NCBI GenBank assembly: GCA_947575745.1
Contig: CANPOS010000021.1
Location: 1 to 33,673 of the forward strand
Direction of reading: 5' to 3'
DNA: 33,673 nt
Source: an uncultured Clostridium sp.
Lineage (GTDB): Bacteria > Bacillota > Clostridia > TANB77 > CAG-508
The number at the start of each line of letters is the position of its first letter. Position 1 is the first letter of the stretch. Under the pieces are notes generated by a model, which saw only the letters and a program-made list of their open reading frames with translations, was not told the origin of the DNA and made no database searches. Position numbers and translations under genes: made by a program. Shown here one piece after another: positions 3,997 through 32,631 of the stretch.

Positions 3997-5779
3997 ATGA
4001 AAGATAAAAAAAGCAAGATAGCTTTATTTTTTTTGCTATCATACATTATCTTAATACCAATTATCAATAGTTTTATGAAAGTATTGGAAAAGTGTTTTGG
4101 TACGAATCTAAATACAATAGATATAAATATATTTAATTTGTTTACTATTGTGTTTAGAAATGGAACTATACTAATTAGTTGGATTTCAATAAATTTAATA
4201 ATTATGCTATTACTAAAAAATATAGTAACTACAAGGGAAAATGTAAAAATTGAAGTAGAAGGAATAAATCTAAAGAAAAAGGACCAGAACATTTGGCACT
4301 GCCGACTGGGCAAATAAAGAAGAAATACAAGAGTATTTAAGTATAAATAAAAGAGATGGCATAATACTTGGAGAAACAGAAGAGGGAGAAATTATCACAT
4401 TATCAGCAGATACATATTTGAATAAAAATATTGCAGTTTTTGGCTCTAGCGGAAGTGGAAAATCTCGAGGATTTGCAATACCAAACGGAATAGAACTTGC
4501 TCAAGAGACATTACAAAAAAACATTAATAGAAATATGAGCATAGTCTTTACTGATCCAAAACGGAGAACTATATAGGAAACTTGCAAAATATCTTGAAGG
4601 TAAAGGATATAATGTAAAAGTATTTAACTTGGTGAATCCAACATTTTCAAATGGGACAAGATTTATAAAATTTGTAGAGGATGAAACAGATGCACAAATC
4701 TTTTCTCAAATAGTTATTGAAGGAACACAGCTAAATAGAAAAGCAAGTGGAGATGAGTTTTGGAACAGAGGAGAACAAAATTTACTAAAAATATTACTGT
4801 TATATGTAATTAATTATGAAACAGAAGAAAACAAGAGTATGGGCTTTATATATGATGCACTAGCGAGTGGAAATATCAAGAAGATAGATAGAATATTTGA
4901 AAATACATCAGGACCAACTAGGCTCAGTTACAATATATATGCACAGGCAACTGACATAGTTAAACAAAGTATTGTAACAGGACTTGCAACGAGATTGCAA
5001 ATATTTCAAACCGAAAAAATAAGAAATATCACAAATAAGGATGAGATAAAATTTGAAGATATAGGAAACAAAAAGACTTGTATATTTGTAGTTACAAGTG
5101 ATACAAATAGTGCGTTTGACTTTTTATCTACATTGTTCTTCTCATTTTTATTTATAAAACTTATTAAGCAGGCAGATGAAAATAGCAATGGAAGACTAAA
5201 AGTAGAAACATCATTAATACTAGATGAATTTGTAAATATAGGAAGAATAGTAGATTTTGAAAAGAAGTTAGCAACAACTAGAAGTAGGGGAATAAATATA
5301 TTTATGATATTTCAAAACATTGAACAGCTGAAGAATAGATATGATAATGATGTGTGGCAAGAGATTTTAGGGAATGCAGATACAAAAATATGTATGCGGA
5401 TGTCGGAGATATTTTAACAGCTGAATATATAACAGAATATTTAGGAGTTGCAACAGTTGAAACTAATGCAATAAAAAAGACAGCAGGATTTGATGGTAAT
5501 TTTACTTATGGAATGGAAAATATATCTACAAATAAAAGAAATCTAATGAATCCAGATGAACTTTTGAAGTTAGATAATAAAAAAGAAATAGTAATAGTAA
5601 GAGGGAGCAAGCCTTTTGTTTGCAATAAATATGATTATTCAAAACATAGTGAAGCAGACAAGCTAGAAGATATGACAGTAGAAGAGCAAAGGGAGAGATT
5701 CAAAGAAAATTTAGGAATTGAAAACATACAAAAGAAAAAACAAGAAGAAAAGAAAAAATATACTTATAAAGATTTTTAA
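3997..5779 (+). CDS. VirD4/TraG-type conjugative coupling protein, with three CGG skip sites and one lost site
   Basis: Read through its frame changes this is a coupling protein of about 592 residues, a normal length for Gram-positive VirD4/TraG ATPases, which feed the DNA-relaxase complex to the type IV secretion channel. Two N-terminal membrane segments (about 8-26 and 50-75) precede FGTADWANKEEI, the Walker A FGSSGSGKS, FTDPKGELYRKL, the Walker B SLILDEFVNIG and a C-terminal ICMGCGDILTAEYI block. Continuity needs the C of CGG skipped at 4562-4564, 5397-5399 and 5404-5406. Each skip gives the glycine expected there. A fourth frame change is needed at 4285-4287, where the codon is CAG: the sequence fits an ancestral CGGA changed to CAGA. 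If so the present allele cannot be read through and the gene is dead, which agrees with the decay of neighbouring genes. Confidence 0.8.
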
Positions 5780-5815
5780 AAGTTATAAGTATTTGTACTT
5801 ATAGCTTTATTTTTT
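5779..5815 (+). terminator. intrinsic terminator after the coupling protein
   Basis: A stem with arms 5779-5791 and 5796-5808 (one G-T pair, loop TTTG) is followed by a T-rich tail. It begins at the last base of the coupling-protein stop codon. Confidence 0.65.
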
Positions 5816-5834
5816 AGAAAAGAAGGTGAAACTT

Positions 5835-6650
5835 ATGACAGAGGAATTAAAGGAAAAAATAATATGGCAAAATATTAATTCTTCTAAAGAAAAAGGAAAA
5901 AATTTAACAGGAAAAATAGTAGCAAGAGAAGTAGAAAAAATGGGTGAAGACAATATTATTTGTGCTATTGTAGATTTTAAGGGGATAAAAGTTTTAATAC
6001 CAGCTACAGAAATGATAGTAAACGGAAAAAATGACAAAAAGCTACTTAGAAATATGATGGGAGCAGAGATAAAATTTATAGTAGTAGAAACAGATAAAGT
6101 AAGTTCAAAAGCAATAGGCTCAAGAATAAAAGCAATGGAACGATTAAAAGAAATAAACATGAAGAAACTAGAAGTAGGAGATAAGATTTATGGAAAGATA
6201 ATTGGAGTATGGCGAAAGTATATACGAATTGAATGTATAGGAATTGATTTTGTAATAAAAGCACAAGACTTAAACTATGGATATATTGAAGATGTATCTA
6301 AACTATATAAAATAAACGAACAGATAAAAGTAATAATCAAAGGAATATCTGAAGAAACAAAAGAAATGCAAATATCTATTAAGGATTTAATTGAAGATCC
6401 GTTTGAGAACATAAGAAAAGACTTTACAGAAACAGGAGAGTATTTAGCAACAATAACAGGCTATACAGATAATGGAATATTCGCAAAAATTACACAAGGA
6501 GTAGATACAGTTTGTGTACTTCCAACCTGGCTTGATAGGCCACCACTTCCAGGAGAAAAAGTAATTGTTAAGATTTATAAAATTGTTCCAGAAAAAAGAA
6601 AAATTTATAGCTCATTAGTCAAAATAATTGGAAGTGATGCAAATGAGTGA
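5835..6650 (+). CDS. S1-domain RNA-binding-like protein
   Basis: The start is ATG 5835 with AGAAGG at 5821-5826, eight bases upstream; the frame is open further back but that stretch holds the ribosome site. The 271-residue protein has a first OB-like region (about 20-105) and a clear S1 repeat at about 110-190 (GDKIYGKIIGVWRKYIRIE, then KINEQIKVIIKGI). A further S1-like repeat (GEYLATITGYTDNGIFAKI) follows. S1 repeats bind single-stranded nucleic acid. Similar proteins are carried by clostridial conjugative elements next to VirD4-type genes. The function here is not known; a role in mobile-element RNA or single-stranded DNA handling is inference. The stop overlaps the next start by four codons' worth of sequence. 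Confidence 0.65.
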   Translation: MTEELKEKIIWQNINSSKEKGKNLTGKIVAREVEKMGEDNIICAIVDFKGIKVLIPATEMIVNGKNDKKLLRNMMGAEIKFIVVETDKVSSKAIGSRIKAMERLKEINMKKLEVGDKIYGKIIGVWRKYIRIECIGIDFVIKAQDLNYGYIEDVSKLYKINEQIKVIIKGISEETKEMQISIKDLIEDPFENIRKDFTETGEYLATITGYTDNGIFAKITQGVDTVCVLPTWLDRPPLPGEKVIVKIYKIVPEKRKIYSSLVKIIGSDANE

Positions 6651-7157
6651 AAACATAAGCAAATAATAAAACTATTATGGGATTTTAGTTCATTAAGAGA
6701 AGAACAGATTATAAAAATGTGTAAGTGTAATGAAAATGATATTAACTATTTAATTGCACAGAATGCAATAACAAGAGATAAAGATACTAAAATATTAAAG
6801 TATAAAGGAAAAGAAATCAATAGTAGGAATATAGTAGCTTTTGATGTAGTTATGAAGTATTTAGATAGAAATGCAAGAGTAAAGAAAGCAAGACATCCTA
6901 TAAATGTAAGTATGACAACAGATTTTTTTACATATGATATTATAGCGATAAAAGAAGCGGAAGTAGATACTTTATTTGAAAAGTTAGATGAAATATCAAA
7001 AAGAAAAAATATCAAGCAAAATATATTAAGTGTCATCAATAATAAAAGAAATTTTACATATAATAAAAATAAGGTTGAGTTATTGACAACAGTAAAAAAA
7101 TACTTTATAATTAACTTAACAAGAAAATATTACGTCGCTCTTGGGTGGTGCGACTAA
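6643..7157 (+). CDS. DUF5697-like protein with a damaged start and a replaced 3' end
   Basis: The frame ending at 7157 is open from 6651, and its N-terminal part (IIKLLWDFSSLREEQIIKMC) looks conserved, so translation should begin before ATG 6717. An ATG at 6643 overlapping the S1 gene is well placed (MSEN...), but it is one frame off, as if one A had been lost in the A-run at 6650-6653. The protein resembles the DUF5697 family found in Gram-positive conjugative elements, including RNIVAFDVVMKYLDRN near the middle. Its last residues, VALGWCD, are encoded by the first toxin-antitoxin repeat, and the promoter of that locus lies inside the reading frame. This suggests that insertion of the toxin-antitoxin locus cut off the original C-terminus. 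Probably non-functional. Confidence 0.5.
7084..7111 (+). promoter_or_regulatory. sigma-A promoter of the antitoxin RNA
   Basis: TTGACA (7084-7089) and TATAAT (7106-7111) are both perfect consensus hexamers, with a 16-base spacer. Transcription would start near 7118, just before the first pseudoknot repeat. A strong promoter ahead of the repeats is what type III antitoxin RNAs need. Confidence 0.75.
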
Positions 7158-7262
7158 TAAATTATCCCAAACGATAAATATGTGTCGCTCTTGGGTGGTG
7201 CGACTAACAAATTATCCCAAATGAAAATATGTCCTCCCTTTGAAATAATAAGGGAGGCTTTA
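7118..7262 (+). ncRNA. type III antitoxin RNA (ToxI/CptI-like) with two pseudoknot repeats
   Basis: Two almost identical units start at GTCGCTC 7134 and 7184, exactly 50 bases apart, with a short partial third unit near 7225-7232. In each unit GTCGC pairs with GCGAC to make a hairpin, and the hairpin loop holds TTGGG, which can pair with CCCAA about 12 bases downstream, making an H-type pseudoknot. The RNA ends at the terminator at 7233-7264, followed directly by a toxin gene. Known type III antitoxins (ToxI, CptI, TenpI) are tandem pseudoknot repeats cut and bound by their RNase toxin. The number of repeats (about two) and their length fit the CptI end of that range best. Confidence 0.75.
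7128..7227 (+). repeat. tandem 50-nt direct repeat (two copies)
   Basis: Unit one is about 7128-7177 and unit two about 7178-7227. The core from GTCGCTC to ATCCCAAA is identical except for one base (ACTAATAAA against ACTAACAAA). Units differ mainly in the A/T-rich linker. Confidence 0.85.
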
Positions 7263-7264
7263 TT
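7233..7264 (+). terminator. leaky terminator between antitoxin and toxin
   Basis: CCTCCCTT (7233-7240) pairs with AAGGGAGG (7250-7257), followed by a short, imperfect T-run. Type III loci use such a terminator to make much more antitoxin RNA than toxin mRNA. Confidence 0.7.
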
Positions 7265-7281
7265 TATGAATGGAGAAAGTA

Positions 7282-7770
7282 ATGAAAGTAAAAAAAGGAT
7301 ATATATATCATATAAAAGATGAATATTTTAATGTGATACAAGATCCAACACTTATGAGAAATCATGAAAATGGAAAAGCAAGACCTACATATTTTTGTAT
7401 AAAGGAAAATAAATCAGATATTTTATGGTTTATTCCTATGAGTAGCAGAGTAGAAAAATATAAAGAAATAAGAGATAAAAAAATCAAAAAATATGGCAAC
7501 TGTGATAGTATTTTAATAAAAAAATTCTTGGGACAAAATTCAGTATTTCTTCTACAAAATATGTTTCCAACTATTGAGAAATATGTAGATCATATACATA
7601 TAATAAATGGTGTTGAAGCAAAAGTAATTGATAAAGTAGCAAAAGAGTTAGAGGATAATTTTCATAAAATAATGGGATTACTTAAACAAGGTAAAAAAGT
7701 AATATTTACAGATGTAGAAAATGATTTAAGGAAGATGATACAAGAACTAGGAAATACTAAAGAGTCATAA
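7282..7770 (+). CDS. type III toxin-antitoxin RNase toxin (ToxN/CptN-like)
   Basis: A 162-residue protein follows the pseudoknot RNA and its terminator. ATG 7282 is preferred because GGAG (7272-7275) lies six bases upstream; ATG 7270 in the same frame would add four residues. The N-terminus KKGYIYHIKDEYF, then RPTYFCIKENKSDILWFIPMSS and a long C-terminal helical part, matches the general layout of ToxN/AbiQ, CptN and TenpN endoribonucleases: a short beta-barrel core with a Ser/Thr-rich central strand. The family cuts mRNA at A-rich sites and is inhibited by its own pseudoknot RNA; many members give phage resistance by abortive infection or stabilise mobile elements. Assignment to the superfamily rests on this layout and locus order; the exact subfamily (CptIN or TenpIN) is uncertain. 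Confidence 0.75.
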   Translation: MKVKKGYIYHIKDEYFNVIQDPTLMRNHENGKARPTYFCIKENKSDILWFIPMSSRVEKYKEIRDKKIKKYGNCDSILIKKFLGQNSVFLLQNMFPTIEKYVDHIHIINGVEAKVIDKVAKELEDNFHKIMGLLKQGKKVIFTDVENDLRKMIQELGNTKES

Positions 7771-7788
7771 AATGTTGAGGTAGGAACA

Positions 7789-7839
7789 ATGGTAACATTA
7801 GAATTTATAGATAATGAACTTAATAAAAAAGTTAAATAA
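7789..7839 (+). CDS. 16-residue ORF, probably a gene remnant
   Basis: ATG 7789 follows GAGG (7777-7780), and the frame ends at TAA 7837-7839. It looks like the first codons of a gene removed by a deletion or insertion, since transposase remnants follow. No function can be assigned. Confidence 0.2.
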   Translation: MVTLEFIDNELNKKVK

Positions 7840-7964
7840 AAAGACAAATAAAATTTATACTTTAATCTACAAACATTAATGTTACAATTCAAAGCCAAAA
7901 AAGAAAAGCAGTATCAAAATAAGAGAGAATTTTAACGAAATCTCCTTAAATTGATGCTGTTTAT

Positions 7965-8132
7965 TTAATTAAGTTTTCCACTTAGTATATTTTCTAATGT
8001 ATATGGCTTACCAAGACTTAGCATAACTAACGCATTATATACATTAACATTATTCCTATCACATGTTTCTATGTAAGTCTTTATTCTTGCATACCAACTC
8101 GCACTTTCTATTTCATGAAATTTCCCTGATTT
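7965..8132 (-). pseudogene. C-terminal remnant of a transposase (IS66-like)
   Basis: About 55 codons on the minus strand are preserved, including IESASWYARIKTYIETC and GKPYTLENILSGKLN with a normal stop. This resembles the C-terminal tail of clostridial IS66-type transposases. The frame upstream runs into antisense of the pilin-like gene, so no complete transposase exists. Family assignment is by memory of the tail pattern and could be wrong; that it is a transposase tail is more secure than the family. Confidence 0.4.
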
Positions 8133-8145
8133 TGATAAAAAGTTA

Positions 8146-8174
8146 TTGACAGTGATAAAACTGATAAGTATAAT
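8146..8174 (+). promoter_or_regulatory. sigma-A promoter of the pilin-like gene
   Basis: TTGACA (8146-8151) and TATAAT (8169-8174) with a 17-base spacer form a perfect consensus promoter. It lies immediately beside the transposase remnant. Its position also rules out translation of the gene from 8146. Confidence 0.75.
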
Positions 8175-8235
8175 TAAAGAAGAAAAAATAATACTAAAAG
8201 TAAGAACAAAAGAAGGAAAGAAAAGAGGCAAACAA

Positions 8236-9423
8236 ATGGAAACCAAAAAAGAGCAAAAAAGGACTTGGAACAAAGGGGAAAAAGGAATAACATTAGTAGC
8301 ATTAATCATAACAATAATAATACTAGTAATCTTGGCAGCAATATCCATAAATGCAGTATATAATTCAAGAATAGTGAATTATGCAATAAATGGAACAATG
8401 AATTATGCAGGAGAAGGAATAAAAGAAAACAAAGTACTAGAAGGGACAGAAAGTCTAATAGAAAGTGCGGTAAAAGAATTAGAAAAGATAAGAGGAGGAG
8501 AAACAAGTCCAACACCAAACCCACCAACACCACCAGAAACGCCAATAGGATTAACGAAAGAAGAATTAAGTCAAGACACAATGATAGGAAAATACGTAGA
8601 TTATAAACCACAAGGAACGGACTATACAGTAGAAGGAACATATTCGGGAACAGGCTCAGATCAAACATTTGCAAAAAATGACGATATGAAATGGAGAATA
8701 TGGGGAGTAGAAGGAAACAAGCTTCTGTTAATATCAGAAACATTAGCAGGAAATATAACATTGTCAGGTGCAAATGGATATAACAATGCAGTAAAAATAC
8801 TAAATGATGCATGTAGCACTGCATATGGAAATAGTAGTTATGGAAGTACAATAAAGGTAAGAAGTATAAATCAAGATGATATAGATAAAGTAACAAATAT
8901 GACTGAAGAATCACAAAGGAAGGCAGTAAACTCAAGTTATGGAAGTTCATATACACCAAGTAATTATCAATGGCCAAATATCTATGGACAAGAACCAGGA
9001 AAAACAGGGGGAGGAAGCTTAGATAGGAGTAGTCAGAGTAGTTGGTATATAGGAACAACAAATTCAAGCTTTACAGGAAAATGGACACATTATAGTTACA
9101 GTATATCAAGTTATGCAACAAATTCAATGTATTATGCGCTACTAACAAATATGAGCGCAAGCTCAACTAGTGGAACAACGTCGCACACTGCGTACTGGAT
9201 CGCTTCACGCTGTGTCAACTTAAACAGTACCAATGCGTACTTCTACGTATTCCGTGTGGGCGGCGGTAATGTGGACGCCTATAACTTGTCTGGTTCGGAC
9301 GGCTACCCGTGGAATCCTACCCGTGCGGTGCGCCCTGTAGTTGAAGTCGATCTAGACTCCATTGCAATCGGAGGCACTGGCTCAGGAACAAATACAGATC
9401 AATACTCAATGACGCTAAAATAA
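8236..9423 (+). CDS. prepilin-type surface protein with a DGR-like variable C-terminal domain
   Basis: The start is ATG 8236 with AGAGG at 8224-8228, giving 395 residues. Residues about 16-45 hold a prepilin-like N-terminus: a basic stretch, then KGITLVALIITIIILVILAA, with cleavage expected after the Gly; the usual Glu at +5 is missing. A Pro/Thr linker (TPNPPTPPETP) follows at about 95. The rest is a Gly/Ser/Tyr-rich domain ending YWIASRCVNLNSTNAYF...RAVRPVVEVDLD, which resembles the C-type-lectin-like ends of diversity-generating-retroelement targets (RPVV near the C-terminus). The DNA from about 9178 to 9380 is much richer in G+C than the rest of the gene. Probably secreted and cell-surface attached, binding unknown ligands. 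It has its own promoter and terminator and is flanked by transposase remnants. Confidence 0.7.
   Translation: METKKEQKRTWNKGEKGITLVALIITIIILVILAAISINAVYNSRIVNYAINGTMNYAGEGIKENKVLEGTESLIESAVKELEKIRGGETSPTPNPPTPPETPIGLTKEELSQDTMIGKYVDYKPQGTDYTVEGTYSGTGSDQTFAKNDDMKWRIWGVEGNKLLLISETLAGNITLSGANGYNNAVKILNDACSTAYGNSSYGSTIKVRSINQDDIDKVTNMTEESQRKAVNSSYGSSYTPSNYQWPNIYGQEPGKTGGGSLDRSSQSSWYIGTTNSSFTGKWTHYSYSISSYATNSMYYALLTNMSASSTSGTTSHTAYWIASRCVNLNSTNAYFYVFRVGGGNVDAYNLSGSDGYPWNPTRAVRPVVEVDLDSIAIGGTGSGTNTDQYSMTLK
9178..9380 (+). other. GC-rich block resembling a DGR variable region (VR)
   Basis: The block has sharp edges, is about half G+C in a gene otherwise near one third, and is poor in A. Within it many codons end in C or T (TAC, TTC, GGC, GAC, GCC, AAC, TCT), as expected if AAC/AAT template codons were mutated at A. 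It ends with a short conserved-looking stretch coding RAVRPVV. Reverse transcriptase, template repeat and accessory gene are not in the window. Confidence 0.45.
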
Positions 9424-9482
9424 AAGGTATTGAAAAATTAGAAAAAATTTAGACTTGACACAGTCAAAGTTTTAGAAACAAA

Positions 9483-9506
9483 GGGACGAGCAAAGCTCGT
9501 CCTTTC
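9483..9506 (+). terminator. intrinsic terminator after the pilin-like gene
   Basis: GGACGAGC (9484-9491) pairs with GCTCGTCC (9495-9502) across an AAA loop, with TTTC following. The stem is GC-rich and strong; the T tail is short. The rest of 9424-9645 holds no gene that I can support. Confidence 0.65.
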
Positions 9507-12750: not shown

Positions 12751-13582
12751 TTGAAGATAACAGATATAGAAGAATTAAGAAAAAAAGCAAACGATATTAG
12801 AATAGGTATAATAGAAGCCGTATATGGAGCAAAATCAGGACATCCAGGAGGATCACTATCAAGTGCTGATATTCTAACAGTATTATATTTTAATCAAATG
12901 CAAATAGATCCAGCAAAACCTAGAGATGAAGCAAGAGATAGGTTTATATTATCAAAAGGACATGCAGCACCAGTTTTATATAGCACTCTTGCAAATCGTG
13001 GATATTTTGATACAGAAGAGTTAAAGAATTTAAGACATATAGATAGTAATTTACAAGGACATCCAGACATGAATAAAGTGCCAGGAGTAGATATGAATAC
13101 AGGTTCACTTCGGACAAGGACTTTCAATCGCAAATGGTATTGCATTAAGCTCAAAAATAAATAGTAAAGGAATTAGAGTATATTGCTTACTTGGAGATGG
13201 AGAAATACAAGAAGGACAAATTTGGGAAGCGGCTATGACAGCTAGCCACTATAAACTAGACAATTTATGTGTTATAGTAGACAATAATAATTTACAAATA
13301 GATGGAAGCATTGATAAAGTAATGAGTCCTTACCCAATAGATGAAAAATTTAAGAGTTTTGGATTCAAAGTTATAAACATAGACGGACATAACATAGAGG
13401 AAATAATAAAAGCATTTAATACAGCAAAAACAATAAAAGGAAAGCCAACTGCAATAATTGCTAAGACAACAAAAGGAAAAGGCGTATCATTTATGGAAAA
13501 TCAAGCAGGGTGGCATGGAAAAGCACCAAATGAGGACGAATATAAACAAGCTATTAAGGAGCTAAAAAAGTTAGGAAAATAA
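12751..13582 (+). CDS. transketolase N-terminal (TPP-binding) subunit with one CGG skip site
   Basis: Split transketolase alpha subunit of the non-oxidative pentose phosphate pathway. The start is TTG 12751 with AAGGAGGG (12737-12744) seven bases upstream. The frame breaks at CGG 13111-13113: skipping the C turns GSLRTRTFNRK into GSLGQGLSIANGIAL, the canonical family sequence, and the gene then runs to 13582, giving 276 residues, the usual length. Upstream are GHPGGSLSSADIL and LSKGHAAPVLY; downstream are the TPP/Mg motif GDGEIQEGQIWEA and VDNNNLQIDG. The second subunit starts 20 bases later. I see no second copy in the window, so efficient recoding would be needed for a working enzyme. Annotation pipelines would call this two fragments. 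Confidence 0.93.
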
Positions 13583-19047: not shown

Positions 19048-19542
19048 ATGACTTTTGTGCGAATATTAGGAATAGACCCAGGGTATGGGATAACAGGATA
19101 TAGTATAATAGACTATATTGGAAACAAATTTAAATTGATAGCAAGTGGAGCAATAAAAACAGCAGCAAAAACTTCATTTCCACTAAGGCTATCAGAAATA
19201 TTTACAGACTTAAATTTAATAATAGACGAATATGCACCAGATGCTATATCAGTAGAAGAACTATTTTTTAACAACAATGTAAAAACAGCAATAAATGTTG
19301 CACAAGCAAGAGGAGTAATATTAGTAGTAGGATGTCAAAGAGGAATACCTACTTATGAATACACACCACTTCAAGTAAAGCAAGCAGTAGTAGGCTATGG
19401 AAGGGCGGACAAAATACAAGTACAAAAAATGGTAAAAACAATATTAAATGTAGAAACATTACCAAAACTAGATGATATAACAGACAGTATGGCAATAGCA
19501 ATTTGCCATGCGCATTCTGCAAGATTTGCAGAAAAATTGTAA
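19048..19542 (+). CDS. ruvC: Holliday junction resolvase RuvC
   Basis: Endonuclease that cuts Holliday junctions with RuvAB in recombination and repair. The 164-residue protein has the four acidic positions: ILGIDPGYGITGY (Asp about 10), SVEELFFNNN (Glu about 71), and DDITDSMAIAICHAH (final Asp pair near 144-148). The loop VVGYGRADKIQVQKMV is also typical. The ATG at 19048 follows the debranching-enzyme stop with no gap. A GTG four codons on is an alternative start. holA starts 13 bases after the stop. Confidence 0.92.
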   Translation: MTFVRILGIDPGYGITGYSIIDYIGNKFKLIASGAIKTAAKTSFPLRLSEIFTDLNLIIDEYAPDAISVEELFFNNNVKTAINVAQARGVILVVGCQRGIPTYEYTPLQVKQAVVGYGRADKIQVQKMVKTILNVETLPKLDDITDSMAIAICHAHSARFAEKL

Positions 19543-19555
19543 GGAAGAAATAATT

Positions 19556-20580
19556 ATGAAGCAAGAAGAATTAGAAAAAGAATTAAAAGATGAAAAATTA
19601 AATAGCATGTATATTTTGTATGGGGAAGAAACATACCTTTTAGAAACAGCTGTAAAAAAGATTAAAAAGCTATTTGGAGAAAAAGTAATACGGAATAAAC
19701 TATATAGAATTAGACGAAGAAACAATAGGAAACCTTATGCAAGAACTCCAAATGCCATGTTTTGGTTATGAAAAGAAAATGATAATAGTAAAAAATTCTG
19801 GGTTATTCAAAAAAGAAACAAAAAAGAAAACAACAAATACTAAAGAAATAAGAGACAACTTAGAAAAATATTTAAAAGAAAATATAGAAGATATAAAAGA
19901 AAGAATAGTTTTAGTATTTATAGAAGAAAGTATAGATAAATTAAATATAACAAAAACATTTGAAAGTATGGGACGGAATAATATGTGAATTTGAACTACA
20001 AAAGCCATTAGCATTGGAAAAAAGACTCACAGCAATTTGCAATGCATACAAAGTAAAAGCAGACTCAGGGGTAATAAAATTTTTAATAGAAACATCTGGT
20101 ACAAGCATGCAAGAACTAATAAATGAAATAAGAAAACTAATAGAATATGTTGGAGAAGGTGGAACAATAAAAAAAGAAGACGTACAGAAATTAGCAATAA
20201 AGACATTAGATAGTAACATATTTGATTTAACAGACAATTTAGGAAAGAAAAATATAGGGGCTTCAATACAGATATTAAATGAGTTACTTTACTTAAAAGA
20301 ACCAATACAAAAGATACTAATAACAATGTATAACCATTTCAAAAAACTATATATTGTAAAACTATCAGAAAAATATAGAAAAGACTTAGCAGTAGCTATG
20401 AACTTAAAGCCAAATCAGGCATTTTTACTAAACAAATATAAAATGCAAGCAAAATATTTTACAGAACAAGAAATAAGGAGTATCTTAGACGAAATGATAA
20501 AATTAGATACAAACTATAAAAATGGACTAATAGATATTAATATTGGAGTAGAAGCGATATTGTGCATGTATTGTTCATAA
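19556..20580 (+). CDS. holA: DNA polymerase III delta subunit with two CGG skip sites
   Basis: Delta opens the sliding clamp in the clamp loader. The start is ATG 19556 with AAGGAAG upstream. The gene lies in three frames joined at CGG 19691-19693 and CGG 19974-19976. Skipping each C gives KVIGINYIELDEETIGNLM and FESMGGIICEFELQKPLALEK and a full-length protein of 340 residues, normal for delta. The Walker-like N-terminus LYGEETYLLETAVKKI, ELQMPCFGYEKKMIIVKNS and the C-terminal NIFDLTDNLGKKN region are typical. Delta is essential, so the cell must pass both CGG codons efficiently. Without recoding the product would end soon after residue 45. Annotation software will report three overlapping short ORFs. 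Confidence 0.92.
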
Positions 20581-23490: not shown

Positions 23491-23576
23491 GGGTAGGTGG
23501 CCGAGTGGCTAAAGGCGGCAGACTGTAAATCTGTTCTCATTTGAGTACGATGGTTCGAATCCATCCCTGCCCACCA
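23491..23576 (+). tRNA. tRNA-Tyr (anticodon GTA)
   Basis: The acceptor stem GGGTAGG pairs with CCTGCCC (one G-T). The anticodon loop is CTGTAAA inside a CAGA/TCTG stem. A long class II variable arm (CTCATTTGAGTA) is present, and the T arm GATGGTTCGAATCCATC is intact. CCA is encoded (23574-23576). It sits at the left edge of an integrase-bearing element and is a probable integration target. Confidence 0.95.
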
Positions 23577-23582
23577 GAAACG

Positions 23583-23627
23583 AACAACCTAAATTGCTTA
23601 GAAAAATAAGCTCTTTAGGTTGTTTTT
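23583..23627 (+). terminator. intrinsic terminator of tRNA-Tyr
   Basis: The outer stem AACAACCTAAA (23583-23593) pairs with TTTAGGTTGTT (23614-23624), the inner stem GCTTA pairs with TAAGC, and TTTTT follows. It may also act on the minus strand for the integrase. Confidence 0.8.
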
Positions 23628-23667
23628 GTATTCCAAAGTATGCAATAAAGTATGCAGTAGAGATTTT

Positions 23668-24870
23668 TTATTTTATATTTTGCATATATTCAACATACTT
23701 GTCAACTTGTTCATTTTTAAATTTATCAAAAATTGTAGTATAAGTATTTATTGTAGTTTGAATATCTTTATGTCCTAATAGTTTTTGTAATACTTCGGCT
23801 GGCATTCCACTTTCAATACAACGTGTTGCATAAGTATGTCTTAACATATGTTGATTATATGTGCTAGTTTTTGAATTAATCTCTTTTTTACCTCTTTTTA
23901 TTATGTATGGAACAACTCCTAAATTAGCATTAGTGCAAATTCTTTTAAATCTACTATTCATATCAGATACTGAATATAATTGACCAGTAGGCTGAATAAA
24001 TAAAAGATTATTTATGTTTAAAGTCATATCAGATATAGATTTTCTTAATGCTTGTTCAAAAAGTGAAGAAATAGGAATTGTTCTTAAAGAGTTATATGTT
24101 TTGGTTGTACTACCTAATATGGTTTTTCCGTTTTTATCTTTAGTAAGACTTCTTTTTATACATATAGTTCCTTCTTTAAAATTTATATCTTCTGTTTTTA
24201 GTGCTAGTATTTCGCCCATGCGCATACCTGTATATAAAGCAATAGTAAAAATATTTTTATAATGTAAATCTTTGTCAAGTTCTTCTAAAAAGGCTTTTTG
24301 TTCATCAATAGTAAGTGCTTCAATTTTTTCATCAATTTTGTCAGATTTTGGTTTTTCTACATTTAGCATAGGGTTTTTTAATATGTAATCACGTTTTATT
24401 GCTTCTATAAAAATTCTACCCAACATTTCATATATTTTGTCAATATATGAATTTGCATATTTCTTTTTAGTATCAATAAATTCTTGTAAGTGATTAGTAG
24501 TAATCTTTTGTATAGGAATATTACCAATTTTATGATTTTTGACATGATTAAGTGTTTGAATGGCTCTGCTGTATGTGGCTTCACTAATTTTATTTCTGTT
24601 TAGTTTATTTTCCACTATTTCCGAGCCTAGTTGATAAACTGTAATATCATTTTTACATATATAAGTACCAGTATTCAAACTATTTTTTACTTCTGTAACT
24701 CTAGCCTTAAAATCTGTTTTACTTTCTTTTTTCCTTTGTTTCATAGTTTGCCTTTTTCCGTTTGTGTCATAATATTGGAACACTAAACAGCCTAAAGCCT
24801 TACTTTTATATAGTGTGCCTTCGCCATTTCCAACTTGTTTTGTTTTTTCATTTCTTCTATTCTTTTCCAT
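23668..24870 (-). CDS. int: tyrosine-type site-specific integrase
   Basis: The 400-residue recombinase has an N-terminal AP2-like DNA-binding region (about 15-55), a SAM-like core-binding domain (70-170), and the catalytic domain with Arg in ALYTGMRMGEILALK, HMLRHTYATRC (H-x-x-R), and LGHKDIQTTINTYTTI with the nucleophilic Tyr. It lies 91 bases from tRNA-Tyr, pointing at it, the usual arrangement for elements inserted in a tRNA 3' end. The Tn916/phage-like Int group fits best. It has no in-frame CGG. Attachment-site partners cannot be checked because the far end is outside the window. Confidence 0.92.
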   Translation of the reverse strand: MEKNRRNEKTKQVGNGEGTLYKSKALGCLVFQYYDTNGKRQTMKQRKKESKTDFKARVTEVKNSLNTGTYICKNDITVYQLGSEIVENKLNRNKISEATYSRAIQTLNHVKNHKIGNIPIQKITTNHLQEFIDTKKKYANSYIDKIYEMLGRIFIEAIKRDYILKNPMLNVEKPKSDKIDEKIEALTIDEQKAFLEELDKDLHYKNIFTIALYTGMRMGEILALKTEDINFKEGTICIKRSLTKDKNGKTILGSTTKTYNSLRTIPISSLFEQALRKSISDMTLNINNLLFIQPTGQLYSVSDMNSRFKRICTNANLGVVPYIIKRGKKEINSKTSTYNQHMLRHTYATRCIESGMPAEVLQKLLGHKDIQTTINTYTTIFDKFKNEQVDKYVEYMQNIK

Positions 24871-24955
24871 AATTAAAAAATCACTCCTTTACAAGAGCAA
24901 CTTTTTGTACTATAATAGATTATAGAAAGTCACTCTTTTTTTGATTTTCTAGGGG

Positions 24956-24982
24956 AATTATTTTTTGAGCAGTCTAGCAACT
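24956..24982 (-). repeat. 27-bp inverted repeat, left copy
   Basis: Read on the minus strand it begins AGTTGCTAGACTGCTCAAA and ends AATAATT. It matches the right copy at 26491-26517 in 26 of 27 bases, in opposite orientation. It lies about 85 bases before the integrase start. Confidence 0.8.
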
Positions 24983-25007
24983 ATTACAAAAAATATTCCC
25001 TGCTTTT

Positions 25008-25370
25008 TTATTCATTTCTTATTTTTTCATCTTTTATGTGTTTTTTTAATTTCTTTAAATTTTTTTCAATGTCAAACATAAAAGTATTTTGTAGTTTGGA
25101 AGCGGTAAAACAAAGTGTTTTTCCAGAATTTATTTCTAATACTTCAAATATCCCTTTATACTCATCCCACAAAAACATAGAAATATACCCTAAAATACCA
25201 TAATTTGCTTCATTTTCTAATAAACAGTTAATAGTTTCAATTCTTTTTGAAAAAGCTCTTTTATTTGTAGTTACTTTATCTTGTTTAGCTTTTAAATTTT
25301 CCAATACTTCTATTGATTTTTCAGTTAGTCCAAGTCTTTTATAAATTTCTTCATTATTAGTTCTTTTCAT
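25008..25370 (-). CDS. stand-alone relative of the XRE repressor C-terminal domain
   Basis: The 120-residue protein has no helix-turn-helix. It aligns with the C-terminal half of the neighbouring repressor: TEKSIEVLENLK against SDKAIETLHTYA, then INCLLENEANYGILGYISMFL against ISYLLENDLKYGLFSKLEEFL. A repressor C-domain copy could form mixed oligomers and change repression (an antirepressor-like role), but this is inference. It follows the repressor gene by 33 bases on the same strand. Confidence 0.6.
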   Translation of the reverse strand: MKRTNNEEIYKRLGLTEKSIEVLENLKAKQDKVTTNKRAFSKRIETINCLLENEANYGILGYISMFLWDEYKGIFEVLEINSGKTLCFTASKLQNTFMFDIEKNLKKLKKHIKDEKIRNE

Positions 25371-25403
25371 AGATTTACTCCGTTTTTACTAATAATATAA
25401 CAT

Positions 25404-26084
25404 TTATTTTTTCTTTTTGTTATCTTTGGTAGCAATTTTAGCTTCCTTCTCTATATCTTTTTTTATATTAAATAATGTTTCATCGACTATAATTTTAGTT
25501 ATGTTTTCCCATTGTTGAACAGTCATAGTATAACCTAAATCATCATTAATGATGTCTTGCTCTAAATCTATTACTTTTTTATGCTTTATTTTAAAACATA
25601 AAAATTCTTCTAATTTGCTAAAAAGACCATATTTTAAATCATTTTCCAACAAATAACTAATCATATAATATGTTTTTTTACGCGACTGATTAATAATATC
25701 CTCAAGTGTTATTGGATATTTCTTTACATCTAAATTTTTCTTTGTTTCTAGTGCATATGTATGTAATGTTTCTATTGCTTTATCAGATAATCCTGTTATT
25801 TCTTTTGTATCGTGATATTCTCTTGTTGGACTTTTAGAATATCCTAGCAAATAGTCGCATGACACATTAAGAGCATCAACAATTCTAACAAATGTATCTA
25901 GGTCAGGCTTTCTACTACCGTTTTCATAATAATTCATTGTAACCCTATCTACATAAACCACCTTTGCTAGTGCCTCTTGAGAACTAAACCCCGCATTAAT
26001 TCGTGCTTTTTTTAATCTTTCACTAAACTTATCAATATTTCCCTTTTTGTCTTTTGTGTCGTTGCTTGACGACATTTTTAACAT
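25404..26084 (-). CDS. XRE-family repressor of the mobile element
   Basis: The start at 26084 (MLKMSSSND) is preferred because AAGGAGG lies seven bases upstream; the frame is open further but lacks a ribosome site. The 226-residue protein has a Cro/CI-type helix-turn-helix at about 20-80 (RLKKARINAGFSSQEALAK, then MNYYENGSRKPDLDTF) and a C-terminal all-helical effector or oligomerisation domain. It is divergent from the HTH gene at 26212 across a promoter flanked by a 9-bp inverted repeat, typical of a lysogeny-type switch. It probably represses the excision and replication genes. Confidence 0.85.
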   Translation of the reverse strand: MLKMSSSNDTKDKKGNIDKFSERLKKARINAGFSSQEALAKVVYVDRVTMNYYENGSRKPDLDTFVRIVDALNVSCDYLLGYSKSPTREYHDTKEITGLSDKAIETLHTYALETKKNLDVKKYPITLEDIINQSRKKTYYMISYLLENDLKYGLFSKLEEFLCFKIKHKKVIDLEQDIINDDLGYTMTVQQWENITKIIVDETLFNIKKDIEKEAKIATKDNKKKK

Positions 26085-26105
26085 TTTAAAACCTCCTTGT
26101 TTTTG

Positions 26106-26165
26106 TTTTGTTACGCTCTGTTGACAAAGCATTTTTTTGATATTATAATGCAAACTGTAACAAAA
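26106..26165. promoter_or_regulatory. operator-like inverted repeat around the early promoter
   Basis: TTTTGTTAC (26106-26114) and GTAACAAAA (26157-26165) are exact inverted repeats flanking the promoter, a likely pair of repressor half-sites or operators. Confidence 0.55.
26121..26149 (+). promoter_or_regulatory. sigma-A early promoter of the element
   Basis: TTGACA (26121-26126) and TATAAT (26144-26149) with a 17-base spacer are perfect. It drives the excisionase-like and helicase genes. Confidence 0.8.
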
Positions 26166-26211
26166 AGCAACAGTTTTTTGAAAATATTTTTAAAAAGGAG
26201 GAAAAAGTAAA

Positions 26212-26499
26212 ATGACAGTTACTGTTAAAACAGACACAGACATCGAGTTGAACATAAAAAAGTTAGATGAAATGCTAGAGAAAATTGAAATGCTAGAGAA
26301 TAATAAGTCAAAAATGATTAACTTTTTAACAATAAAACAATTTTCTCAAATAAGAGGATGCTCATTAAAAGTTCGGAGGCGACATCTTCAATTTGCCAGA
26401 TTTTCCTAGTGAGAACTATCGGCAAGCAAAAAGTAGTGGAAATTCGGAGCCTTGCGACACTGGTACATGACCAAAAGAGATAAAAATGAGAGTTGCTAG
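26212..26499 (+). CDS. small HTH/excisionase-like protein with three CGG skip sites
   Basis: A strong AAGGAGG precedes ATG 26212. The first frame stops early (26409), but three in-frame CGG codons, 26374-26376, 26420-26422 and 26445-26447, when each is read with its C skipped, give a continuous 94-residue protein that ends at TAG 26497-26499. The product reads FLTIKQFSQIRGCSLKV, then FNLPDFPSENYGKQKVVEI, then ALRHWYMTKRD, which is the layout of small winged-helix excisionase or MerR-like proteins of clostridial elements. The three skips within 75 bases are the densest cluster in the window, and the downstream frames read as protein only with all three. Role: probably excision or replication control; exact family uncertain. 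Its last codons overlap the right inverted repeat. Confidence 0.8.
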
Positions 26500-26517
26500 A
26501 CTGCTCAAACAATAATT
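26491..26517 (+). repeat. 27-bp inverted repeat, right copy
   Basis: AGTTGCTAGACTGCTCAAA, one differing base, then AATAATT. Partner of 24956-24982; together they enclose the repressor block and the HTH gene. Confidence 0.8.
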
Positions 26518-26599
26518 TTTAGAAGTGCAAGGGTGGTCTTCTGTATTTATAGTACAAAACCACCTTGTAAAGAAAAAATAAGAAAAGGAGTAATTTAAA

Positions 26600-27890
26600 A
26601 TGGAAATGAAAGAAGAAATTCAAACAAAAGAAGCGGAAAATGAGATAACCAATATTGAAAAAAGTGAGAATAATAGTATTCCACTAGATAATTCTAGTAA
26701 GCAGGAATTTAAGGGGAATTATCCAGAATGTGTGCTAAAATATTATGACCCTAGTGTCCTTTTGACTAATTCGCCAGAGTTAAAAACAGTAAATGACTAT
26801 TATGAAAGTGTTACTTGCAAAATTAAGGGCATAGAAAACTTACTTTATGAAGTACAAGGTTATTCATTAGCAGAAACTGCTAAACCGAATAAACTAATAG
26901 TCCTAAAAGGCGATGGCAGAAATGGCAAAAGTAAGATTTTTAGACCACTTGAAAAAGTATTGAACGAAAAATGCTCACATGAGCATTTGGAACAACTATC
27001 TGGAAGTAAAGCAGGAAGTAAATCAACAATTAAAAGATTAGACCGGTTGCACATTAAATATTATGGAAGACCAAAAGCAACCAAAATACATAAATAATTC
27101 GCTTGTAACTCGTATTGTATCAGGCGAGCCTATATCATTAAATGGAAAAGATGATAATAATGTCTTAATACCATATGCAACGATGATAATGTCTGTAAAT
27201 GATGTTATAAACTTTAAGGAAATCGGTCTTCATATAACAGATAGGGTTATAGTCGTGCCATTCCTTGCAACATTTACAGATGACAGAGGTAATCGTGATA
27301 TTAATATAGGAGATAAGCTATGTACAAAAGAAGCCTTAAAGATTATTGTAACTAGGGCTATACAAGCATTTGAAAAAGTGCTAGAGGTAGGTAGATTTAC
27401 TATTCCGCCTATTGTAGAGCAAGAAACAAAACGATATTTTATGGAATGTAATAGTGCATTAGAATTTGCTAGAATGTTTCCTATAAAAACAATTATCGTT
27501 AAATCGACTTATTATAAGAAATATAGTAATTGGTGTAGGAAGAATAATAGAGAAGCGGTTAGCGACTCGCAATTTGGTAAGCAACTTAAAGCAATAGGTT
27601 ATAGACCTGAACGATATTTATTAGGCGGTAAAAGAGAACAGTTTTATGCTTCTCCAGATTTCGATAATTCTAAAAGTAAAGATATTTACAATGAATATCT
27701 TCAATGGAATGGTATAACTAAAGAAACAGATAAAATTTATGGTGATAAATATAAAAGGGAAAACTATAATGGAACTTTTGAAGATTATCTTTGTAAACAA
27801 CTAGATGAGGAAGAAAAAACAGATAATGAAGAAACAACACAAGATGAACAAAAAACAGAAAGTCAAGAAACAGCATCTGACAACACATAA
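26600..27890 (+). CDS. phage/plasmid SF3-type helicase (P4 primase-like) with one CGG skip site
   Basis: Replication protein of the element. ATG 26600 follows AAAAGGAG. The helicase core has Walker A KGDGRNGKS (residues 103-111), a B-like region at LDGCTLNIMEDQ, IMSVNDVINFKEIG and an arginine-finger region ITDRVIVVPF. A C-terminal winged helix follows (about 300-370), and the tail is Glu/Thr-rich and disordered. The frame breaks at CGG 27044-27046 (RLDRLHIKYY becomes RLDGCTLNIMEDQKQPKYIN), the only CGGT case, giving about 429 residues. It lacks the N-terminal primase domain of long P4-type proteins, so it may depend on a host primase or be a shortened family member. Confidence 0.85.
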
Positions 27891-27902
27891 TGACTTAATG
27901 AT

Positions 27903-27932
27903 AAATAAGCTAGTCCTATGACTAGCTTATTT
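27903..27932 (+). terminator. intrinsic terminator after the helicase gene
   Basis: A perfect 13-bp stem (27903-27915 with 27920-27932), CTAT loop, T-rich end. Confidence 0.85.
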
Positions 27933-27933
27933 A

Positions 27934-28287
27934 TTGGAATTTCACTATGCCACTATGCCAGATACATATTAGTAAATAACATTTTAGTCTAGCTTAAATG
28001 GAATAGTTTTAAAATGGATATGTTTAATAAAATTTTATTTCAATTTAATATATAATTTTATATAAATCAAGTGAAACAATTTTTTACACAAAGTTCGTTA
28101 TGTTTTTATACGAAGTATAAAAACAAGTATGCAAATAATTAAAAATTTTTTATGAGGGTGCATCTATGAGCATTATTTTGAATTTTGCATAAAATACTTA
28201 TCTAATCTAATTGTCTGTTAATAAATTTTATAATAACAGGTAAATAAGCTAATTGTATTTTTGGAATTTCACTATGCCACTATGGCA
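27934..28287. repeat. direct repeats and hairpin in a 600-bp convergent non-coding zone
   Basis: Between 27891 and 28494 I see no gene. A 27-base direct repeat occurs at 27934-27960 and 28261-28287 (one mismatch), holding the tandem CACTATGC core. A perfect 10-bp hairpin lies at 28102-28124 (GTTTTTATAC, loop GAA). Each direct repeat is preceded by a TAAATAAGCTA-like stretch. The zone could carry a replication or transfer origin, or be a site where elements recombine. Function unproven. Confidence 0.55.
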
Positions 28288-28365
28288 GGTGTGTATATAT
28301 CAGGCTTGCTAAATTCGATTTTAAGACCTTTTAGTATATATGGCGAAAAAATTTTTGTCAAAATA

Positions 28366-28422
28366 AATATACCCTCTACATTGTCTAAAGAGCCTCTCTA
28401 GTTCAATATATGAGGGTATATT
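28366..28422. repeat. 11-bp inverted repeat
   Basis: AATATACCCTC (28366-28376) and GAGGGTATATT (28412-28422) are perfect inverted repeats 35 bases apart, with further weak complementarity inside. Possible oriT-like or terminator structure for the minus-strand genes. Confidence 0.5.
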
Positions 28423-28494
28423 GTAATGTTATTATTACTAACATAATTTTAAATATTGTATTTTGTAATTGTTTCTATATGCTAATTTTCTTTC

Positions 28495-28755
28495 TTATAT
28501 TGCTTCTGCCATTAGCCTTGTTGCTACCTTAAAACCTTCTACAAAATAATCTCTCATAGCTGTACTTTCCATATCTGTTTTATATTGTAGTATTTCTGTT
28601 AGTTCTTCTTGTTCTCTTGGTAATATTCCTTTGTAAAATTTTTCTTTAAGTATATTGTATTTATGTAGTAGTTCTGCATAGTCTTTACTATTAGACATTT
28701 CGTTTTCTGTCTGCTCATAAAGTTTTAGTATAACACTTTCTTGCTCTGTATCCAT
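28495..28755 (-). CDS. DUF6809-like small protein
   Basis: An 86-residue, all-helical acidic protein with a good ribosome site (AAAGGAG). The C-terminal MRDYFVEGFKVATRLMAEAI pattern resembles DUF6809 proteins of clostridial mobile elements, whose role is unknown. Last gene of the minus-strand cargo block. Confidence 0.5.
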   Translation of the reverse strand: MDTEQESVILKLYEQTENEMSNSKDYAELLHKYNILKEKFYKGILPREQEELTEILQYKTDMESTAMRDYFVEGFKVATRLMAEAI

Positions 28756-28822
28756 ATTTTGTAACTCCTTTCCTTTGTTTCTTTATTTACACTTTAAATA
28801 ACATAGTTATTTACACCTATAA

Positions 28823-29509
28823 TTAACTATTCTTTTGTATTTCCTCAATAGCCCTATTAGTAGCATATATTGTATTTTTGTTGTATAATCTTTGCCATGC
28901 TTGTTCATATCTCGACCATTTGAAACCTCTATGTTTTAAGATATTTCTAACTTCTTCGTTAGGTTTATCATCAAAAAGTATTTGTATTCTGTTTATATCT
29001 CTATTTAGTATTGCTTTACCACCAGTAAAGGTAATTTCTTCAAACTGCAATTCTTCTAGTTCCTGAATTTCTTTTATTCTGTCTTTAGTTCTTCTTATAT
29101 CTGCATTAAGGTAGGGTAACTCATACCATTCGTGAGGTCTAGCTTTTACTTCAACTTTTGCTTCTTCTAGCTTTTTAAGTCTAGCTTGTAGTTTTTCAAT
29201 AGCTTGGGGGTCATCACTTGAAATACTATTGTTATTCTCTATGTTTTCAACCTTATTTTCGTAGTATTCGGCTTTATTGTCTGCTTCTATTGATTTATCA
29301 AATTGACTGTGCATTTTCTCGTAACCTCGTCTTGTAGCATTTGCACTATAATGGTCTGTAAGTATTGGTTGTCCTAGTGGTATTGCATTACTTAATTTTT
29401 GGTATTGCTCATAGTGTTGTTGGCTCTTTTCTCTTGATTTTTCTGCTAATTCTTGGTATCTTTCTTTTTTATATTCTTGTCTTTCTTCATAATCAATTCT
29501 ACCTGCCAT
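28823..29509 (-). CDS. DUF3560-like protein
   Basis: The 228-residue protein starts MAGRIDYEERQEYKKERYQ and is coiled-coil-rich in its first 140 residues. It carries HSQFDKSIEADNKAEYYE and NNNSISSDDPQAIEKLQ, patterns I associate with DUF3560 proteins of conjugative elements. The C-terminal half forms a small alpha/beta domain (NRIQILFDDKPNEEVRNIL, then FKWSRYEQAWQR). Function unknown; the family is common next to DNA-processing genes. It is translated just after the unknown 29525-30115 gene. Confidence 0.65.
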   Translation of the reverse strand: MAGRIDYEERQEYKKERYQELAEKSREKSQQHYEQYQKLSNAIPLGQPILTDHYSANATRRGYEKMHSQFDKSIEADNKAEYYENKVENIENNNSISSDDPQAIEKLQARLKKLEEAKVEVKARPHEWYELPYLNADIRRTKDRIKEIQELEELQFEEITFTGGKAILNRDINRIQILFDDKPNEEVRNILKHRGFKWSRYEQAWQRLYNKNTIYATNRAIEEIQKNS

Positions 29510-29524
29510 TTTAAAATCTCCTTT

Positions 29525-30115
29525 CTAATATTCTCTTAAGAATGTAAATTCGTTTTGCCATTTCTCATATAATTGGTCATCTGTATATTCTTCTGATTTT
29601 CTAACTATAACACCATAACATTTGCCTTCTTCTTCAACTATGATTTCTATTGATCCATTTCCTAAAGATAATATCTCTTTAAATTTTCCAGTAATACCAT
29701 AGTCTTTTTTAGCATTTTCAAACCATTTATTAATTTTATGTGATAATGTATTTTCTCTGTTTTCTTTATCTACCACTTTTGATATGTTTTTAGGGCTATA
29801 AAGTAGGCTTTTTATAGTTTCTAAATCATCACGTTTTACAATTATTTCATTTGTATAATTTTCATATCCTAAAGAAGAAAACTCTACATCTTTTCCTAAA
29901 TTCCTTTTAATCATATTATTATTAGCTTCGTAGTACATGCCTAGAGGAGATAATATCAATATAAATTTATCTTTTCTTGGGTTCCATACATATAAATCAC
30001 TTTCATAATTAGAAGCAATTTGAAATGCCGTTAAAGCCGTACAATTAACATATATTTCATTTTCCCAGTATGGAGATATTTTAAATAACCATGCTTTATT
30101 ATTCTTGTTTTTCAT
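29525..30115 (-). CDS. hypothetical protein of the element
   Basis: I do not recognise this 196-residue protein. It is soluble, mixed alpha/beta, with many aromatic residues near the N-terminus (AWLFKISPYWENEIYVNCTA) and a C-terminal strand-rich end. Its ATG is 16 bases after the reframed stop of the RNase J-like gene, with AAGGAG between, so they are one transcript. Confidence 0.55.
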   Translation of the reverse strand: MKNKNNKAWLFKISPYWENEIYVNCTALTAFQIASNYESDLYVWNPRKDKFILILSPLGMYYEANNNMIKRNLGKDVEFSSLGYENYTNEIIVKRDDLETIKSLLYSPKNISKVVDKENRENTLSHKINKWFENAKKDYGITGKFKEILSLGNGSIEIIVEEEGKCYGVIVRKSEEYTDDQLYEKWQNEFTFLREY

Positions 30116-30131
30116 CTTTTTATTACTCCTT

Positions 30132-31320
30132 CTATAATCTGTATATTTCCTTATTCTTTAAATGTCTAATTCTATATGGTAAATCTAACTTGTCAAAATC
30201 ATATGAGTTTATTCCGATGTATAGGAATTATCACTTTAGGTTGAACAATGTTGCAAACTTCCATAATTCCTTCAGCAGTTGCATGACCGCTTGTGTGTAA
30301 ATAATGGTATTTTCTAGGAACAAACTTTACAAGGTCTTTTTCTGCTGTTGGACCTTGTAAATATCCTAACCATTGAGAGTAAATGAATAGGTTGTTTTTA
30401 AATCTAGGGTTATAAACAAATTTCTTTGAAAAGTAGTTGCTGCGAACTAACATACAAAAACCATTACTTACCATCTTTTTATACAATTCGCTATCAAAAC
30501 TCTTAACATCAGAGAAATTATAATAATCTGTATATTTCGCACTATTTTTGCTTACATAATCAAGTATTTTCTTTTGGTAAATATCGCATATAAACAGTTT
30601 TTCTCCTGCTTTTTTATTTGCATGATAAAAAGAAGCTATCCTGTCAATGTTAGTAGAAGCACATAGTATAAAAATGTATTTTTTACTTTTTATTAAACTA
30701 ACTGCTTCTTCCTGTAACATAAATTCAGACACAAAGTTTTCATCTTGTCTTGATAGTGTTGTATGCTCACAAATTAAAACATCAACTTTTCCTATTCGTT
30801 TAAGTGTTTTAGGTGTTCCTTTTCCCATAGGACCATGCAAACGGAAATCTCCTGTATGTAAAATTCTTTTTCCGTTAGCTTCTATCAGAAACATATAACT
30901 GTCAAATGCCGAATGGTCTGTACGAATAGGGGTTATTTTCATATCTCCAATTTTTAAAGGTACACCTTGCTTAAATATTTTAAATGTATCTATTTTATCA
31001 ATATGTTCCTGTGTAATGTCTGTAACACCTGTATCTTTCATTTTATTTTGAAATATAGTAAAAATCTCTTTTGCCTGTTTTCCAATGTAAATAGGAACAT
31101 CTTTATTAACTTGCATATATTCGCCTACATGATCGCCGTGATAATGTGTTATAAAAACAGCATCACATTTTTTACTGATATTAGCAATATTCACTTCTAT
31201 TTCATTTTCACAATTAGGGAGATTAGAGCCAACATCAATTAGTATTTTTGCTTTTGTACTTCTAATTTCAGTTACACAACCACCAATTTGATTAACACCT
31301 CTATGTATTTTAATCTGCAT
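30132..31320 (-). CDS. RNase J-like metallo-beta-lactamase-fold protein with one CGG skip site
   Basis: A zinc-dependent nuclease-type protein. The metal site FITHYHGDHVGEY (about residue 60), RTDHSAFDSYMFLI, HTGDFRLHG and the C-terminal YLHTSGHATAEGIMEV and PKVIIPIHG match RNase J-like enzymes. The frame breaks at CGG 30216-30214 (minus), exactly at the conserved Gly of the last motif: IPIHRNKLI becomes IPIHGINSYDFDKLDLPYRI. The reframed gene ends at 30132, giving 395 residues, and hands over to the next gene with a normal ribosome site. It is shorter than RNase J and lacks a clear long C-terminal domain, so it may be an element-encoded nuclease rather than the housekeeping RNase. Substrate unknown. 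Confidence 0.85.
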
Positions 31321-31385
31321 AATTCCATTTTCCTTTTCTTTTGTTTTAATACTTCTATTTCAAGCTATAATCGTTTTTAAGCCAT

Positions 31386-31478: not shown

Positions 31479-31568
31479 AGCACATCCTATCGTTGTCTAT
31501 ATCACAATTTTTAGAAAACCATAACAAAACCATAAACAAACTACAAAAAGCTATGACAAAACCAGTTA

Positions 31569-32618: not shown

Positions 32619-32631
32619 ATTTATTATCCTT

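Follow-up and report, generated by a model that had tools for sequence, protein, structure and literature searches.

The analysed stretch of DNA, here called the window, comprises 33,673 nucleotides from an uncultured Clostridium sp. (GCA_947575745.1, contig CANPOS010000021.1). On its plus strand, positions 7083-7770 begin with a promoter, which is followed by two 50-nt repeats, then by a terminator-like hairpin and finally by an intact gene for a 162-aa toxin; type III toxin-antitoxin loci are arranged in this way. The first-pass annotation had delimited the same stretch correctly to within a base, its start (7084) being one base off, as the -35 element begins at 7083. PADLOC gave no type III match for the locus. 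A scan of genome contigs yielded 80 relatives, and two repeats precede the toxin gene in them wherever the upstream sequence sufficed.

The promoter is composed of a -35 element TTGACA (7083-7088) and a -10 element TATAAT (7106-7111) at a spacing of 17 nt, both on the plus strand and conserved in relatives. It agrees with the consensus at 12 of 12 positions, as the earlier claim of a perfect promoter had it, and is the sole such site between 6600 and 8000; a site within one mismatch of these 12 positions is found in 54 of 59 loci, 19 of which have it perfect. The predicted transcript start lies at about 7118. Between repeats and toxin, where cptIN loci possess a Rho-independent terminator, the window has a putative terminator, the plus-strand hairpin CCTCCCTT-(9)-AAGGGAGG (7233-7257) followed by the imperfect U tract CTTTATTTAT. 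The terminator-like element noted earlier is thus present, and it is conserved among the relatives, a hairpin with a T-run being detected in 59 of 67 loci vs. 36 of 335 shuffles. The hairpin at 7233-7257 was not picked up by a terminator pattern scan because its loop is 9 nt long. The toxin gene (7282-7770, plus strand) most likely starts at ATG 7282 rather than at the possible upstream in-frame ATG 7270, because a putative ribosome-binding site GGAG is located at 7272-7275 of the plus strand, 6 nt before ATG 7282, and because relatives match from that same residue onward.

The encoded toxin is a member of the CptN family. The CptIN equivalog model NF047359.1, which is the best NCBIfam model for the protein, scores 167.5 bits (cut-off 90), and no TenpN model is among the matches listed. 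The closest solved structure by sequence is CptN of Eubacterium rectale (4RMO; phmmer E = 9e-28), which is also the sole PDB match of a toxin profile built from 41 relatives (E = 5e-32). An AlphaFold model of the toxin (mean pLDDT 87.6) retrieves 4RMO first in Foldseek (E = 2.3e-13, TM 0.81), followed by AbiQ, MazF and B. thuringiensis ToxN. Thus, the proposal of a type III system with a CptN-type toxin, for which a match to an unrelated toxin family had been named as contrary evidence, is borne out by the homology search and by the predicted structure alike, both leading to the expected family. The window toxin is ~34-39% identical to E. rectale CptN and shares with that system the fold, the Ser-Ser-Arg catalytic triad (Ser54-Ser55-Arg56, 7441-7449) and the two repeats before the toxin (PMC4627078). 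Among Asp81, Ser85 and Tyr104, with which E. rectale CptN holds the scissile adenine (PMC4627078), Ser85 is kept, Asp81 corresponds to a gap and Tyr104 is replaced by a conserved His106; the cut-site specificity is uncertain because Asp81 and Tyr104 are not kept. The ToxIN and AbiQ systems have the same gene order and likewise rely on a pseudoknot RNA antitoxin that the toxin processes, and their toxins resemble the window toxin in fold (AbiQ, E = 6.5e-6; B. thuringiensis ToxN, E = 9e-4), whereas the sequence identity is ~13-17%. Unlike the window locus, the ToxIN systems that have been studied possess 34-36-nt repeats, present in 2.8-5.5 copies, and form a 3:3 complex (PMC5086642).

The antitoxin repeats and their pseudoknots

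The two repeat copies start at 7134 and 7184, at an exact spacing of 50 nt, and are 93% identical over 44 nt. Their self-match score is 37.4, whereas 200 Markov shuffles reach 15.2 at most; the repeat core has a chance expectation of 0.01 matches in the window, and no copy of it was found in the 1.86-Mb genome beyond these two places. Both copies fold into H-type pseudoknots on the plus strand. In unit 1, stem S1 joins GUCGC (7134-7138) to GCGAC (7150-7154), and it is crossed by stem S2, which joins UUGGG (7141-7145) to CCCAA (7166-7170). The pseudoknot of unit 2 spans 7184-7220, with S1 at 7184-7188/7200-7204 and S2 at 7191-7195/7216-7220. The two stems GTCGC/GCGAC and TTGGG/CCCAA, read off the sequence in the earlier annotation, are therefore found in both copies. 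The 5' strand of S2 is connected to the 3' strand of S1 by a junction, UGGU at 7146-7149 in unit 1 and located at 7196-7199 in unit 2, and the loop L2 occupies 7155-7165 in unit 1 (UAAUAAAUUAU) and 7205-7215 in unit 2.

The pseudoknot covaries across relatives in both S1 and S2, including all five pairs of S2. For the window's group, 30 distinct repeats were aligned with no use of structure; in this alignment, 94.0% of the cells are paired and 50 cells have both sides changed. None of 500 shuffles reaches these pairing or double-change values, although such counts are not probabilities, the sequences being related, and the case for covariation is carried by repeated switches of pair type and by slid-strand controls, which pair just 30-51%. 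Moreover, it is often compensated changes that set the two copies of a locus apart. A lack of such changes among related loci would have spoken against the first-pass annotation, but they are present there. Covariation was counted for each repeat class separately because, in the whole-set alignment A1, the 46-nt class was misaligned across S2; the evidence from the 46-nt class alone is weaker since its stems hardly vary.

Rfam was searched with gathering as well as relaxed thresholds; the locus gives weak sub-threshold matches, none of which attains the gathering score of its family. These matches could hint that the repeats are something else, for instance CRISPR-like or a cis-regulatory element of the toxin gene; we give this explanation almost no weight, as all of the matches are far below the gathering score, while the pseudoknots covary and the repeats are constantly paired with CptN genes. 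As for an antitoxin-specific model, the ~75 aligned loci covary strongly and suffice to build a covariance model for an RNA that Rfam does not detect.

The CptI units themselves were delimited by analogy with the processing of E. rectale CptI, which leaves units that end in GA (PMC4627078). GA with an A-rich stretch behind it recurs at a 50-nt period, at 7124, 7174 and 7224, and putative cuts after AAGA (7124), ACGA (7174) and ATGA (7224) delimit a predicted processed unit 1 at 7125-7174 and unit 2 at 7175-7224, both on the plus strand and 50 nt long. Processing as in E. rectale would thus give exactly two 50-nt units, a number that would fit a 2:2 CptIN complex. The E. rectale CptI sequence, taken from a primer in PMC4627078 with the stem assignment made in the present analysis, folds into the same H-type pseudoknot, has AUAAAU at the same distance of 2 nt from S1, and consists of a 5' tail of 6 nt, S1 of 5, L1 of 3, S2 of 5, junction of 2, S1 of 5, L2 of 9, S2 of 5 and tail of 5 nt, 45 nt in total. 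The corresponding values for the window unit are 9, 5, 2, 5, 4, 5, 11, 5 and 4, or 50 nt, so that it differs by a longer 5' tail, a longer L2 and the 4-nt junction UGGU. The L2 motif, which is conserved in relatives, reads AUAAAU in unit 1 and ACAAAU in unit 2, the former being the equivalent of A29-U34 in E. rectale CptI. L2 of the window locus is hence of the A-rich type characteristic of cptIN, with the kink (A29, U30) for the A-minor twist. In E. rectale, the A29U substitution or deletion of U30 abolishes antitoxicity (PMC4627078), and the C at the kink position U30 in repeat 2 was counted against the reading as an intact cptIN locus.

Repeat length and the stem junction

Repeats recur every 46 nt in the relatives from Lachnospiraceae and Oscillospiraceae, compared with every 49-53 nt in the window's group. 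Published cptIN repeats measure 40-47 nt in one review table (Table 3, PMC6315513), a range that is descriptive rather than defining; the repeats are 50 nt long here and 44-53 nt long among the relatives. A length of 50 nt lies within the 41-55 nt of the tenpIN entries (PMC6315513), and the Pfam profile ToxN_toxin matches the toxin weakly, at 18.8 bits and below its cut-off of 25; both could be taken to place the locus in ToxIN, TenpIN or a fourth type III family. We consider this highly improbable, because the CptIN equivalog score is far above the cut-off, 4RMO is both the sole PDB profile match and the first fold match, and L2 contains the CptI A-minor motif; the sub-threshold ToxN_toxin score is as expected for a CptN. 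The locus is therefore a member of the known family CptIN, from a branch with unusually long RNA units, and not a new family.

The suggestion that the 50-nt length marks a distinct subtype was not upheld. On the toxin tree, none of the length labels 49, 50 and 51 can serve as a subtype marker without several changes, and 50-nt repeats occur outside the window's clade as well; the trait of that clade is the junction. For instance, another cptIN class from the same bacterial family (L089-L099) has 50-51-nt repeats with a short junction and an S2 of the CUCU(U)/(G)AGAG type, and thus the length of 50 nt arose more than once.

The toxin clade of the window is characterized by 49-53-nt repeats with an expanded stem junction of 4-8 nt starting with UGG. 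This trait requires one change on the toxin tree, and 95% of bootstrap trees have a branch that separates the UGG loci from the rest, with branch support of 94/79, which rises to 99/94 without the long-branched L086. In the 114 window-group units that fit a simple grammar, the junction consists of UGG plus 1-5 nt, the UGG being there by construction since the grammar required TGG; it is 4 nt long in 84 units, and L2 is 11 nt long in 109 of the 114 and ends in AU in 109 of the 114. In the unselected alignment, TGG and the final AT are invariant in 30 of 30 rows. The sister toxin clade (L057-L082), formed by Lachnospiraceae/Oscillospiraceae cptIN loci with 46-nt repeats and toxins 43-51% identical to that of the window, likewise has two repeats, the L2 motif and a similar 5' tail, AAAUAUUG, but it differs by a 2-nt junction, 4-bp stems and the lack of UGG.

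We see an even chance that the window represents an undescribed CptI subclass, defined by a UGG loop of 4-8 nt at the point where the stems meet and by an L2 ending in AU, which arose a single time along with its toxin clade and could set antitoxin specificity. The structural novelty resides in the antitoxin junction and is modest. The addition in the junction is located opposite that in L2, at one and the same end of S2. This suggests the hypothesis that mismatched pairs, namely U-U and G-A, extend this stem; alternatively, the loop may engage CptN in a new contact. The linkage of the UGG junction to one toxin clade provides a natural experiment on the co-evolution of an RNA antitoxin with the enzyme that cuts it. 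In a separate case, the repeats of locus L043 have different junctions, 6-nt UGGCUA in repeat 1 and 4-nt UGGU in repeat 2, as if two types had been brought into one operon by recombination.

Module borders and neighboring genes

The unit of conservation is a module at 7057-7753 (plus strand), the stretch that the window has in common with L005, L006 and L007. In the compared stretch 4500-9500, these three loci have no match upstream of 7056, and the borders of the module lie at 7056-7057 and near 7750. The module is preceded by a split gene for a TraG-type coupling protein, an S1-domain gene and a DUF5697 gene, and the upstream region, judged by these genes, appears to be the remnant of a conjugative element. 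The TraG/VirD4-type coupling protein is encoded at 4629-5779 in two overlapping frames and is devoid of its N-terminal part, owing to either decay of the conjugative element or an assembly indel.

The DUF5697-family gene directly upstream (6654-7157, plus strand; first listed start ATG 6717) is truncated. Its homology to intact relatives ends near 7000, at about residue 116-120, after which the frame enters antitoxin repeat 1. In the Pfam profile search, the window fragment misses the DUF5697 model and the window genome has no DUF5697 match; this negative result is due to the truncation and was resolved via the intact relatives. The locus L105 (genome G024, same genus), which has no toxin-antitoxin module, encodes an intact homolog of 163 aa (PF18954, 37.2 bits, cut-off 27) and retains the upstream neighbors of the window. 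In L003, a complete DUF5697 gene is followed by a short spacer and the same module; L004 shows further decay. The 3' end of the DUF5697 gene is thus lost in the window, as stated previously, yet the toxin-antitoxin locus did not cut into it: insertion of the module as the cause was rejected on the strength of L003, which keeps the gene whole beside the same module, and the comparison points to a later event, probably a deletion of ~130 nt across the junction.

The loss of the DUF5697 3' end, the split in the neighboring TraG-type gene and the internal stops in some CptN homologs of the same bacterial family might indicate that the locus too has degenerated and is now an inactive remnant of an integrative element in decay. 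This is very unlikely in view of the perfect promoter, of two pseudoknots complete in both stems, and of the intact toxin frame under purifying selection (dN/dS 0.11 vs. L003; range 0.11-0.20). Furthermore, housekeeping genes outside the element are split over neighboring frames too, namely the N-terminal half of transketolase and DNA polymerase III delta (12751-13582 and 19508-20580), which suggests assembly indel errors and calls for care with other split genes here. The cptIN locus is complete and probably active.

The far part of the window (23491-33673) is a second, separate integrative element, in which tRNA-Tyr (23491-23576) lies beside an integrase gene (23668-24870, minus strand), an HTH repressor and, at 26600-27890, a D5-type primase that is possibly split. 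Two adjacent DnaQ-like exonuclease genes at 31569-32618 (minus strand) look like a tandem duplication.

Proposed mechanism, role and distribution

A single transcript, antitoxin excess via termination, self-processing and a closed complex constitute the established model for the cptIN family, and this model fits every part found at the locus. We are highly confident that the window contains an intact cptIN type III toxin-antitoxin locus, for which this model predicts transcript processing and a 2:2 complex. Transcription from the one promoter would begin just before repeat 1. The hairpin would stop most transcripts, which would then supply antitoxin RNA only, and read-through in some would allow CptN synthesis. 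CptN, a ribonuclease of the MazF/Kid fold, would cleave the precursor behind the GA at 7124, 7174 and 7224, and the two released 50-nt pseudoknots would form a closed inactive 2:2 ring with two CptN molecules. When the supply of transcript ends, through loss of the locus or phage shut-off of host transcription, the less stable RNA would be lost first, and free CptN would then cut cellular RNA and halt growth. E. rectale CptIN and ToxIN serve here as the models for the cleavage sites, for a 2:2 complex and leaky termination, and for growth arrest and its trigger.

By the same analogy, the locus may function in addiction or in phage defense. ToxIN-family type III systems abort phage infection (PMC5086642), and the module occurs in varied contexts, so that the primary role of this cptIN locus might be phage defense by abortive infection rather than stabilization of the carrying element. 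We regard such a role as possible but on balance unlikely. E. rectale CptIN stabilized plasmids but failed to protect E. coli against phages (PMC4627078). The whereabouts of relatives say little on this point; the phage collection contains none, the viral contigs a single distant one and the plasmids six. A lone exact match to the repeat core among viral contigs, considered as a phage decoy CptI, lies in a GC-rich phage gene and was rejected as a chance match.

CptN homologs are present in 36 of 145 genomes of the window's bacterial family, some of them broken, compared with 12 of 291 in a class-wide draw of genomes examined by profile search. The cptIN locus of the window adds a clear and complete example from an uncultured gut Clostridia lineage. 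The CptN homologs of L086, L087 and G114:C49 contain internal stops; the repeats are still recognizable in L086 and L087, which are possible orphan antitoxins left after toxin loss. In L043, L020 and L033, a second toxin or repeat copy is found within a few kilobases at the same locus, and these are tandem cptIN loci.
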